Assembly (NCBI GenBank): GCA_900215285.1 | Contig: OCMG01000004.1 | Coordinates: 1,658,001-1,722,000, forward strand | From: Ensifer adhaerens | Lineage (GTDB): Bacteria; Pseudomonadota; Alphaproteobacteria; Rhizobiales; Rhizobiaceae | Length of the DNA: 64,000 nucleotides | Reading direction: 5' to 3' | In this document: piece after piece, positions 1 to 4,491 of the stretch | How positions within the stretch are numbered: the stretch's first letter is position 1 | Layout of the letters: each line of letters begins with the position of its first letter | Program-made: the position numbers and the translations under genes | Notes under the pieces: model-generated | Seen by the model: only the letters and a program-made list of their open reading frames with translations | What the model was told of the DNA's origin: nothing | The model's database searches: none

Positions 1-508
1 GCGCCAGATAGACGAGCGGCACGCTCCAGAGCAGGCGCTGGTCAGAAATCAGGCTGTCGGGGAAGCGGTCGAAAAGCGCACCGATGGTTTGGGCGTCTGC
101 CATGTGGCCGAAGATGTCGGTCAGCGTCTGGACGATAACGAAGCCGATCATCCCGACGGCGGCCACGCGGGTGAAGAGGCCGAGCACGACCAGCGTCGGC
201 AGCAGCAATTCCATATAGGTGCCGAGCGGCACGATGATCTTCCACGGGAAGAACGGGAGCGCCGAGACATCGCCGCTCACCGCATCCATGGCTTGAGGCG
301 CAATCTGGTAGAAGGCGCCGTCCTGGATCTGGAAGAAACCGGCAAGACCTTCGCCGACCTTGGTGCCAAAGGAGTTCAGGAAGTAGAAATAAAGCACAGC
401 GAAAAAGACGAAACGGGCGAAGAGGCCAAGAAACCAGCCCTCCGTCAGCCTCTCGGCAAGGCCGAAGACGCCGTCGTGCAATTGCTTGATCTTCATCAGA
501 AAATTCAT
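1..508 (-). CDS. bufD: DoxX-family membrane protein, BufD-like (3' end beyond window)
   Basis: At least 169 residues are visible from ATG at 508; the C-terminus lies left of the window. The start has GGAGG nine bases upstream. It begins one base after the stop of the DUF2063 gene, so it is the last visible gene of the bufABCD operon. The protein is hydrophobic, with membrane segments such as LFARFVFFAVLYFYF near residue 24 and IIVPLGTYMELLLPTLVVLG near residue 80, and a conserved PFFPWK stretch. This fits the DoxX family (four-helix inner-membrane proteins). In bufferin operons the DoxX member is called BufD; its role is not settled, with quinone-linked electron supply or metal handling as possibilities. 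The family call rests on hydrophobic pattern and context. Confidence 0.8.
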   Translation of the reverse strand, partial: MNFLMKIKQLHDGVFGLAERLTEGWFLGLFARFVFFAVLYFYFLNSFGTKVGEGLAGFFQIQDGAFYQIAPQAMDAVSGDVSALPFFPWKIIVPLGTYMELLLPTLVVLGLFTRVAAVGMIGFVIVQTLTDIFGHMADAQTIGALFDRFPDSLISDQRLLWSVPLVYLA

Positions 509-509
509 G

Positions 510-1292
510 TCAGGAAACCTCCATCCCCTCAAAGAGAACCTTTGAAAATGCGCCTGCTTCGATGATCGCCGAAATTGCGGCGGGCAGGTTGAAATCCGGA
601 TCGGCGGAAAGGGCTGCTCCCGCTGCCTCACCGAGCGTGCGGCCTTGGATCAGCAAGCCGACAAGGTCTGCGCCGCCCTTCGGCAGGTGCCGGATTTCCG
701 GATCGTAGGCGGGGCGCGTGACGAGACCGTCTTCAGCAACGAACGGGTCGAGACCGTCCAGCGGCTCGCCTGCACGATCCCGAGCCATGATGGTGACGGC
801 GGCGTGCTGACCGCGAAACAGCCGTGTCGCGGGATGGGCGACGAGGGTGAGGCCGGCGAGGTGTTCCGGCGCGATGCGCTGCAGGGTGGCCCCGTCGAGC
901 GCTGCGGCATCTGCTGCATGGAAGCTGTCTAGCCACAGGCGTTCCAGCCGGGCGACATCGCCCAGAAAAGGGAGTTCGGCCGCCGGCTCGAACTCGTCGA
1001 GAAACGCCGGGAATGTCGCGCCATATTCGAAGAGCAGACGCGACGTCGGGGGATTGTCCTGTATGTAGAGCCTTGCCGTTGCTCGGAAGAAGTCCTCCCC
1101 GACCAGGTTCTGGATGGTCGGGAAGATTTCGACCAGCGCATTGACGAGGCTGACGGTCACATTGTTGCGATAGACACCAAAACGTCGTGCCGCCGGCTTG
1201 CCTTCGGGCGTGATCAGGCCATCGGGAACCGCACGCTCCGGATTGAGAAGCGCGGCAACGAAAGCATGCTGGGAGGGCGATGCGTCACCCAT
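510..1292 (-). CDS. bufC: DUF2063 protein, bufferin-modification partner BufC
   Basis: 260 residues. The N-terminal half has the DUF2063 signature RFGVYRNNV near residue 37, followed by [16 protein letters not shown]. This domain is known as the HvfC/BufC N-terminal domain and is nearly always encoded beside a DUF692 (MNIO) enzyme, which it appears to help present the peptide substrate to. The ATG at 1292 lies inside the last codons of bufB (8-base overlap), and the stop is one base before bufD, so the three genes are translationally coupled. No signal peptide is evident, so it should act in the cytosol before export of the precursor. Family assignment is strong; the exact role is inferred from the known clusters. 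Confidence 0.9.
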
Positions 1293-2184
1293 GGCGCGCG
1301 CCCATCAGATAGGTGGAAGCGTGTCGCGCAAGAATCGCGTCCGCAGCCTCAGCCTCGCGACGCAGAACCGGCCAGTCGGGAACGTCATTGTCCCATTCGA
1401 TCAATGTCGGCAGCGGGCCGGTCTGGCTGATGACGATGTCGTAGAGGCGCCAGACCTCATCGTCCACGGGCCGATCATGGGCGTCGATCAGCAGGCGCAT
1501 GCCATCCTCGTCCTCGTCCTCCGCATGCCCCGCCAGATGAATTTCCTCGACCAGATCGAGCGGGAAGTCGTGCAGATACATCAGCGGCTTGAAGCGGTTG
1601 TTGACGGACGAGACCAGCACATTGTTGACGTCGAGCAGCAGGCCGCAGCCAGTCCGGAGGGCGATCGCGCGGATGAAGTCCGTCTCGCTCATCGTGGAGC
1701 GCTCGAAGACCGCGTAGGTCGAGGGGTTCTCGAGCAGGATCTTCCGGCCCAGGACCGATTGCACCAGATCGATATGATCGCAGACGCGGCTTAGCGTTTC
1801 GTGGTCATAGGGGACCGGCAAGAGATCGTTGAAATAGCTGTCGTCATGGGTTGACCACGCCAGATGTTCGGACACCTGCTCCGGTTCGTAACGCTCCACG
1901 ACGGCCTTGAGCCGCGAAAGGTGCATGGCGTCGATCCCGTTCTCGGAACCGATCGATAGACCTACGCCATGCACGGAGAGCGGAAAATGCTCCCGCATGC
2001 GGGTCAGCTGGCGATGCGGGTGACCGCCAGCCCCCATGTAGTTCTCCGCATGCACTTCCAGGAAACCGATCCGGTAGCTGTCGGCGAGGATCGCGTCGGC
2101 ATGCACGGACTTGAAGCCGGCCCCCGCGCGAGCGGGCAAGGTCTTGCCGATCCGGGCAGGCTGGCCGAAAACTTCCGGTTTCAT
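1285..2184 (-). CDS. bufB: DUF692 multinuclear non-heme iron oxidative enzyme (MNIO), BufB
   Basis: 299 residues with a TIM-barrel DUF692 pattern. Likely metal ligands are present: HAEN (45-48), SVHGVG (H72), SEH (E106, H107), LLENPS (E152), LLLDVNN (D185, N187), IHLAGH (H216, H220), DAH (D234, H236) and LIEWD (E263). Enzymes of this family use two or three iron ions and oxygen to modify cysteines in ribosomally made peptides; bufferin enzymes turn Cys into thiooxazole-type groups that bind copper. The natural substrate is the adjacent four-Cys protein at 2388-2699. The start at 2184 has AAGGA upstream. It follows bufA after a 203-base gap holding a strong hairpin. Chemistry is inferred from family knowledge; the ligand set is directly visible. 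Confidence 0.93.
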
Positions 2185-2232
2185 CTCGTTGTTCCTTCAA
2201 ATGGATTTCGTCATGAAAAAGCCAACGCCCCA

Positions 2233-2250
2233 GCCCGGGGAAGCCCGGGC
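2233..2250 (-). terminator. GC-rich hairpin between bufA and bufB (partial terminator or RNA stabiliser)
   Basis: GCCCGGG (2233-2239), a 4-base loop, then CCCGGGC (2244-2250) form a perfect 7-bp all-GC stem. In the minus-strand transcript a GGCTTTTTC run comes about 12 bases after the stem. It sits in the only sizeable gap of the buf operon, just before bufB. The imperfect T-tract spacing suggests partial read-through or protection of the bufA message rather than full termination. Confidence 0.55.
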
Positions 2251-2387
2251 GCCGGATAGATGTGTCAATGCCTCCTCCTCAAGGAGCCCGCCCTGCGGGA
2301 CTGCGGATGGGTGAGGCATCGACGCGATGCCGGGCGATCGGGCCCGGGCGCTGCAATAAACGCCCGCCGATCCTTCCGAGGCCGAAA

Positions 2388-2699
2388 TCAGGCCGGCAGG
2401 TCGCGCTTCAGGGCTTCCAGTGAGCCCTTGCGGTCTCCCGGCAACTTCATCGTGGTGCAGGTGCCCTTGGCGACATATTTCCAGGAGTTGCCCTGGTAGT
2501 CGATCTTGGACGTGCCGGCGCAGGTCGTGCCGGGGCCTGCAGCACAGTCGTTCTTGCCGGCCATGGCAACACCGAAGCACTTTTCCTTTGCGTCGGCAGC
2601 GGCAGCCGGCGTGACGGACGAAACGAAACTGGCGGCAGAAACTGCCATCATGAGGGCGCTGGCGACTGCGGATGCGCCAATGACGGTCTTGGTGGACAT
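2388..2699 (-). CDS. bufA: DUF2282 exported precursor, BufA1-type copper-binding bufferin
   Basis: 103 residues. A Sec-type signal peptide (basic start, hydrophobic stretch to about residue 30, then PAAAADA) precedes a short mature region with exactly four cysteines: C41 (EKCFG), C52 (NDCA), C60 (TTCAG) and C81 (GTCTT). EKCxGVAxAGKNDC is the hallmark of DUF2282/BufA1 precursors. In Caulobacter such peptides are modified on cysteines by the MNIO partner, exported and bind copper in the periplasm. The ATG at 2699 has a GAGGAG ribosome site eight bases upstream; an in-frame upstream start lacks one. First gene of bufABCD, so probably the most expressed. No metal regulator gene is adjacent. Confidence 0.92.
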
Positions 2700-2903: not shown

Positions 2904-3956
2904 TTACCTCAGGAGTTCGACGAAGCGGTCGACTTCGGAGGCGTCGGTCGCAAAGGACGTGACGAGGCGCACCAGCGTCTCGTCAGGCGCCATCGCATCA
3001 TGCAGGTGTTCCGGGATCTCATGCCAGTCGTAGAATTGCGCGCCGGCATCGCGAAGACGCTTCGAGGCGTCGTTGCGGAAGATGGCAAAGACCTCATTGG
3101 CATTCGTCTCCCAGGCGGAGCGGGCATTATTGCTTGCTGCGATGCCCGCACGCAGCCGATCCGCCATCGCATTGGCGTGCCCAGCAAGTTCCAGCCAAAG
3201 GCCATCTTCGAAATAGGCCTCGAACTGGGCGGCAACAAAGCGGGTCTTGGAAAAGAGCTGCGCCGACTGCTTGCGGATGAAGGGCAGCTGACGGGCCTGT
3301 TCCGGATTCATGAAGACGATCGCCTCCGCGCACCAGCAGCCGTTCTTCGTCGCGCCGAAGGAGAGGATGTCGACGCCGCGCTTCCACGTCATTTCGGCGG
3401 GCGAGACATTGAGCGCGGTCAGCGCATTGGCAAAGCGAGCGCCGTCCATGTGGAGCGGAATATCGTGGCTCTTCGCGATGCCGGCGATGCGTTCGATTTC
3501 GCCGAGTGAATAGAGCGTGCCGGACTCGGTCGATTGCGTGACGGTGACAGCCATGGGCTGGCCAGCATGGATGAAGGCCGGCGGGACGGCGCGGATGCCA
3601 CGCTCCAGGCTCACCGGATCGATCTTGCCATCCTTGCCGCCGATGGGCGAAAGACGGGCGGCGCTGGAGAAGAAGCCGGGCGCGCCGCATTCGTCGCAGA
3701 ACACATGCGCGCTGTCGTGGCAGAAGATAACGCCGCCGGGCTTGCCGACGCTGGCCAGAGCGAGCGAATTCGCCGCCGTCCCCGTGGAGACAAAGAAGAC
3801 GGCAACCTCGCGCTCGAAGATATCGTTGAATGTCTGTTCCACCTTCTTGTCCAGCGCCGACGTGCCATAAGCCGAGGCGAAGCCGCCCGCTTCTGTCGTC
3901 AAGCGCTCAGCGATCTTCGGATGGGCGCCGGCCCAGTTGTCGGAGGCAAAAAACAT
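2904..3956 (-). CDS. ltaE: Low-specificity L-threonine aldolase
   Basis: 350 residues; PLP-dependent enzyme of the beta-eliminating lyase family that splits L-threonine or L-allo-threonine to glycine and acetaldehyde. The PLP-binding lysine is K204 in SFGATKNG, and MDGARFANAL carries the family Asp. The start is placed at the MFFASDNWAGAHP methionine (3956), which matches the usual alphaproteobacterial N-terminus; an ATG 19 codons upstream would add a charged extension that is unlikely. Single gene, divergent from gltB across a 535-base intergenic region and 204 bases upstream of bufA on the same strand. Confidence 0.9.
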   Translation of the reverse strand: MFFASDNWAGAHPKIAERLTTEAGGFASAYGTSALDKKVEQTFNDIFEREVAVFFVSTGTAANSLALASVGKPGGVIFCHDSAHVFCDECGAPGFFSSAARLSPIGGKDGKIDPVSLERGIRAVPPAFIHAGQPMAVTVTQSTESGTLYSLGEIERIAGIAKSHDIPLHMDGARFANALTALNVSPAEMTWKRGVDILSFGATKNGCWCAEAIVFMNPEQARQLPFIRKQSAQLFSKTRFVAAQFEAYFEDGLWLELAGHANAMADRLRAGIAASNNARSAWETNANEVFAIFRNDASKRLRDAGAQFYDWHEIPEHLHDAMAPDETLVRLVTSFATDASEVDRFVELLR

Positions 3957-4491
3957 CGTAAAATCCGGCCTTGTTCGTGTCGTGTCGCAGGGGTTTGCGG
4001 GGACATTAATCAATTGTCCCCGGGGCGGCCACCTTGCGGAGCGAGAAACCCCAAAATTTGACCAACTGGTAATATTCCGACCATACTCATAGAAAGCACG
4101 AAATTTAATTACGTAAATTGGTAATTTTACGAAACCTTGTGCGCTTCGGTATTAATATTTTCCTCCAAGGCCCTTGCAGCCCCGGCGTCTTTCTGGCATA
4201 GAACGAATGAAATAGGACAGGTTTGCTGTCCTATTTCGGTCTTGAAGGACCGAAGACGCGGCAAAAGTGCTGGAAACGGCGACAATTCGCGCTATAGTCC
4301 GATCGTCACTTGCGGATGTTAATGTCCGCCCAAGGACATCAATCAAGGCATGAGAATTTCCTAGGTTCCTGCGCCGGATGACGGGGCGGGCAAGGCTGAG
4401 GGATGCTCGCGCGAGGACTTGCAGCATTCAGCTGCATCGGGTGAATGAACAGGGGCGTCCGCGTGTGCGGACCAGTTTTTGGAGGAAGACG
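3957..4491. promoter_or_regulatory. Long divergent regulatory region between ltaE and gltB
   Basis: 535 bases without a credible gene. The part nearest ltaE (about 4040-4165) is AT-rich and holds the dyad AATTTA-N6-TAAATT at 4102-4119 and ACCA-AC-TGGT near 4063, plausible operators. The gltB-proximal half holds a series of stem-loops listed separately. A weak GCGGA/TCCGC stem lies at 4312-4329. No clear sigma-70 promoter could be fixed by eye. Confidence 0.5.
4209..4252 (+). promoter_or_regulatory. Tandem hairpins in the gltB upstream region
   Basis: GAAATAGGACAG (4209-4220), loop GTTTG, CTGTCCTATTTC (4226-4237) is a perfect 12-bp inverted repeat. It is joined directly to CGGTC (4237-4241), a 6-base loop and GACCG (4248-4252). 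Neither strand shows a proper T-tract after the stem, so a simple terminator is unlikely. It could be a protein operator or a structured leader RNA about 240 bases before the gltB start. Confidence 0.5.

Follow-up and report, generated by a model that had tools for sequence, protein, structure and literature searches.

A Buf1-type bufferin operon of Ensifer adhaerens and a putative phased response-regulator array upstream of bufA

Four adjacent genes at the start of the window (the whole 64-kb stretch of DNA analysed here) make up a Buf1-type bufferin biosynthetic operon, an assignment of identity and product class to which we give a probability of roughly 0.9 (Table 1). A chance match was ruled out because the four genes, side by side, fit the four defining families of a single cluster type, and the published Buf1 core cluster consists of the same gene set (PMC12452194; literature statements here and below are drawn from excerpts of the cited papers). 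The operon as such is ordinary and well supported. The new aspect is a regulatory variant, put forward with less confidence, in which the region upstream of bufA carries a helically phased array of short half-sites.

Table 1. Features of the bufferin operon and its flank (window coordinates).
Feature	Position	Strand	Details
bufD, DoxX-family membrane protein	2-508 in window	minus	Pfam DoxX 26.1 bits, cut-off 23.6
bufC, DUF2063/PME-type 1 partner, two domains	510-1292	minus	260 aa; Pfam DUF2063 E 1.4e-25
bufB, MNIO bufferin maturase	1285-2184	minus	299 aa; Pfam MbnB_TglH_ChrH (ex-DUF692) E 6.2e-102
bufA, Buf1 (DUF2282) precursor	2388-2699	minus	103 aa, ATG start; Pfam E 8.6e-25
Two predicted stem-loops near proposed 5' end of bufA leader	2727-2768	minus	z -2.7 against 50 shuffles
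Weak -10 element GAGCTT	2776-2781	minus	proposed from class conservation
TTGATTTCC, best conserved element of promoter class	2801-2809	minus
Array of six T-N-A half-sites, exact 11-bp spacing	2798-2863	minus	putative response-regulator sites
Threonine-aldolase-like gene (Beta_elim_lyase)	2904-3965		operon flank; gltB also flanks

The operon and its product

The original prediction described a DUF2282 protein with cysteines at positions 41, 52, 60 and 81, a DUF692 enzyme with a His/Asp/Glu/Asn ligand set, a DUF2063 partner overlapping that enzyme by 8 bases and a DoxX gene one base further. All four proteins matched the expected families in HMM searches, with BufA falling inside DUF2282, and the cysteine positions were confirmed. 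The coordinates agree with the predicted layout, bufB and bufC sharing the 8 bases from 1285 to 1292 and bufD starting at 508, one base past the bufC stop codon (510-512). BufD is a putative DoxX protein whose score lies only just above the Pfam cut-off. The operon had also been called complete, which is right in that all four genes are present and bufD is whole in the genome (L002:7930-8508, 192 aa), but within the window bufD is truncated by the window start, with 169 of its 192 codons inside and 71 terminal bases beyond. One MNIO gene and one DUF2282 gene are found in the genome.

The N-terminus of BufA resembles a signal peptide as judged by eye, and its four cysteines are invariant in all 81 family loci compared (the window plus 80 chosen relatives). 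BufB scored 369.2 bits against the NCBIfam model NF050167 'MNIO family bufferin maturase' (MNIO_BufB, cut-off 310) and stayed under the cut-offs of the HvfB, ApyH, MbnB and ChrH models; BufC and BufD stayed under those of HvfC and HvfX, respectively. Together with the DUF2282 match and the published core cluster, the maturase score upholds the earlier assignment to the BufA1 type. Candidate ligand residues of BufB are E43, H72, E106, H107, E152, N153, D185, N187, N188, H216, D234, H236 and E263, and at the level of sequence alignment the ligand-type residues are kept in 80 or all 81 of the family BufB proteins. Relatives of BufB in the PDB are 3bww, TglH and MbnB. A sequence search of the PDB with BufC returned no match, whilst its AlphaFold2 model (mean pLDDT 92.9, built from 28 sequences) matched TglI (8hci, 8hi7) and NGO1945 (3dee), the sole three matches at E ≤ 0.001.

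The Buf1 cluster of this strain is of the standard type, which is common in the family. DUF2282 and MNIO proteins occur in nearly equal numbers of the 247 family genomes (132 and 134, respectively), and bufA was present in all six genus members examined. All 81 loci contain bufA, bufB and bufC because they were picked for bufA, and a DoxX gene, which Buf1 clusters commonly but not universally have, was recognisable from the window's protein in 60 of them. These loci span 53 genera, 28 of which are positive for NrsF, 24 negative and one mixed. Among named relatives, BufB is 90-93% identical in Rhizobium sp. C1 and C4 and in two Rhizobiales isolates.

Going by characterised relatives, BufA would be synthesised with a Sec signal peptide, and the RRE-type domain of BufC would present it to the iron enzyme BufB, which with O2 would convert the central Cys52 and Cys60 to 5-thiooxazoles. 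The outer Cys41 and Cys81 would be joined in a disulphide, and the exported peptide would capture excess copper in the periplasm; the DoxX protein may play an accessory role. These steps follow bufferin and captophorin relatives, in which the central cysteines become 5-thiooxazoles, the outer pair forms a disulphide and copper is bound in the periplasm (PMC12452194, PMC13097082). If the oxidation takes four electrons, Cys52 and Cys60 would each lose about 4 Da, and thiooxazoles are reported to absorb near 305 nm (PMC13097082). The BufA product of this strain is probably a chemically modified, copper-binding peptide, and we infer copper protection by this operon from the same relatives. Comparable Caulobacter genes show a response to chromate and cadmium (PMC3511200), and MerC fusions hint at other metals for some bufferins (PMC12452194), which would suit a peptide acting mainly against another metal or stress (chromate, cadmium, mercury, gold). 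However, the characterised bufferins and the related thiooxazole peptides are linked to copper (PMC12452194, PMC13097082), and we regard a main target other than copper as improbable.

Among known systems, Caulobacter CC3254-CC3257 has the identical domain order of DUF2282, DUF692, DUF2063 and DoxX (PMC3511200), and CC3254, to judge by its match in domains, is presumably the studied bufferin. The captophorins fontiphorin, oxazolin and gonophorin (MNIO plus PME1) likewise combine an MNIO enzyme, a DUF2063 partner and a cysteine-containing precursor, but their precursors carry EGKCG repeats (PMC13097082), whereas the precursor here is of the DUF2282 type.

Two promoter types upstream of bufA

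The Caulobacter operon is sigma-F-dependent through GTAACC-N16-CGAA (PMC3511200). As this is the described mode of control for Caulobacter operons and NrsF matches exist in 87 of the 247 family genomes (85 above cut-off), a sigma-F/NrsF-type ECF sigma factor might be expected here too. However, this genome gave no match to NrsF in a search whose control did recover NrsF in Caulobacter vibrioides, and the region upstream of bufA is without a correctly spaced GTAAC-CG[AT]A site; the GTAACC in the window promoter has no CGAA at the distance required. The comparison of the 81 loci took in as much as 320 bp of sequence upstream of each bufA, with two genomes holding sub-cut-off NrsF matches (G103 and G166) scored as NrsF-negative and the status of G001 determined separately. 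GTAAC with CG[AT]A downstream at roughly sigma-F spacing was found in 39 of 41 NrsF-positive genomes, being absent from the other two promoters, and in 0 of 40 NrsF-negative genomes. For 36 of the 41 NrsF-positive genomes, the retrieved locus includes the NrsF gene itself. A sigma-F promoter for this bufA was thus rejected, and control as in Caulobacter is very improbable. Since there is no NrsF match here and the promoter type differs, the Caulobacter comparison should not be carried over to regulation.

The half-sites of the array in the window promoter read TGAC, TCAC, TCAC, TTAT, TAAC and TGAT, starting at 2863, 2852, 2841, 2830, 2819 and 2808, respectively. A run of six was reached by none of 5000 Markov sequences. 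When every site was counted on both strands, T-N-A being its own reverse complement, the array was the only period-11 run of at least five in the 64-kb window; at period 9 there was one site with a run of five. Four of five genus relatives have six or seven half-sites and the fifth has four.

T-N-A steps about every 11 bp are conserved across the 39 sites of this second promoter class, and at the position of the proposed -10 element the A is found in 39/39 and the final T in 32/39. With thresholds for the class chosen after the data had been seen, TTGATTTCC (at most one mismatch) occurred in 35 of 40 NrsF-negative against 0 of 41 NrsF-positive promoters, and period-11 runs of at least three in 29/40 and 3/41, respectively. 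For periods 9, 10, 12 and 13 such runs were found in at most 2/40 NrsF-negative and 1/41 NrsF-positive promoters. Five NrsF-negative promoters were without TTGATTTCC at this threshold, and one of these, L083, has no related element at all. A profile from which the window's genus was excluded placed its best site in the window at the array (21.4 bits, the next site scoring 7.9); with the same profile one genus relative reached only 4.7 bits.

L083 is a very divergent second bufABC copy in genome G057 (BufB branch length 2.6-3.0) with neither promoter form, and G057 also carries an ordinary bufABC copy.

The exact pattern TTKATTTCCANKTGA had 46 matches in the 247 genomes, against seven for a reversed control, and by coordinate comparison 26 of the 46 lie upstream of bufA. 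It has no match in the window's own genome because the site there departs from the pattern. A wide regulon was rejected, as the pattern is mostly upstream of bufA and five of the 20 other matches, when viewed, had no common target. Among the matches listed from the open-licence bufferin and CenR literature, no description of this TTGATTTCC-type bufA promoter was recognised.

The bufA leader was also searched for RNA features. The 39 related leaders differ in sequence, and most have predicted stem-loops in the same place as those of the window (mean z -1.5). Concealment of the ribosome-binding site in the leader was rejected, with full pairing in just 4 of the 38 leaders scored out of these 39, and an Rfam scan of 2150-2950 at E up to 1 gave no match. 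Separately, the 203-bp spacer between bufA and bufB (2185-2387) has a predicted fold of -93.1 kcal/mol (z -1.93, 5 of 200 shuffles being as good) and might determine how much precursor is made relative to enzyme.

Candidate regulators and the descent of the array

The phased array upstream of a putative weak -10 element inclines us towards control by a response regulator of the OmpR/PhoB family. In PhoB-type promoters the last half-site is placed some 17 bases upstream of the -10, an arrangement that the array resembles. A step length of 10-11 bp is usual for OmpR-family regulators (PMC9275681). The best candidate within the family, and a tentative one, is CenR, for which the motifs TCAC-N6-GTGA (PMC9561847) and TGA-N8-TGA (PMC9275681) have been published. 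With its spacing fixed and at most one mismatch, TCAC-N6-GTGA was found in 23 of 40 class promoters, against 0.05 of 40 in shuffles, and the window's own copies of the two motifs are one and two letters off. Both motifs of CenR promoters (S. meliloti srlA and the R. sphaeroides CenR regulon) recur in this class; compared with those CenR-controlled promoters, however, the window's array is longer, its distance to the start predicted near 2769 differs and its CenR site is putative.

Quite possibly the array serves a member of the OmpR family different from CenR, such as a copper or phosphate regulator. T-N-A steps of 11 bp are a trait of that family, and the operon has no adjoining regulator gene that would name the partner: a dedicated regulator beside the operon was rejected, none being recognised when sequences of the 18 commonest neighbour families were inspected by eye. 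On the other hand, the two published CenR motifs fit the promoter class (PMC9561847, PMC9275681), whilst no other named motif compared does so. ChvI was rejected as the regulator, its motifs TTGC-N3-GCAA and N-GCC-N8-GCC (PMC9731502) being unlike the array.

Shared descent also bears on the likeness of these promoters. The NrsF-negative loci have a common neighbourhood of gltB (35/40), threonine aldolase (32/40) and a hydrolase (31/40), none of which was found in the 41 NrsF-positive loci, and part of the promoter likeness is therefore due to descent. As threonine aldolase and gltB stay adjacent in so many loci, the chromosomal position of the operon is fixed in this lineage. Moreover, NrsF status has to change three times on the BufB tree, and well-supported branches force two of these changes. 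The independent instances therefore number only two to three, and an independent-pair test on this tree found only two pairs on supported branches, with which significance is unreachable. With related promoters in a common neighbourhood and so few changes of status, the array could for the most part be a legacy of common descent from a single chromosomal locus instead of the binding site of one regulator. We hold this to be less likely than not, since the coding neighbours are highly divergent, yet TTGATTTCC and the 11-bp steps are fixed; the runs are specific to period 11 among the periods compared, and the inverted repeat TCAC-N6-GTGA is far above its shuffles.

Lastly, a further 80 loci were classified, of which two had no bufA in reach and 14 repeated training loci. 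By the set thresholds, the 64 left comprised 26 of the array class, 21 sigma-F-like, none with both and 17 with neither. Fourteen of these 17 belong to a Rhizobium/Peteryoungia-type group that is among the nearest outside the genus (L186, L187, L189, L191, L193-L200, L202 and L205). The group has a third promoter form, in which TTGATTT is retained and repeats of TTACA and CTACA replace TCAC/GTGA. The array is therefore not universal even among close relatives.

Our tentative reading of control is that an envelope two-component system, either CenK-CenR or one closely related to it, and not sigma-F/NrsF, governs the bufferin operon in this part of the Rhizobiaceae, recognising as many as seven half-sites in helical phase. 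As part of the same tentative reading, this gene set would have switched its control system at least twice.

Meaning for the family

With this operon the copper-buffering peptides, a widespread class, gain one more rhizobial member. Should the promoter split hold, it matters for the timing of peptide production, with the same genes answering to two unrelated systems of control. It also cautions against taking for granted that metals induce these genes through sigma-F as in the Caulobacter model. If the envelope two-component reading is true, copper buffering would be tied to cell-envelope homeostasis and not to a dedicated metal sensor.
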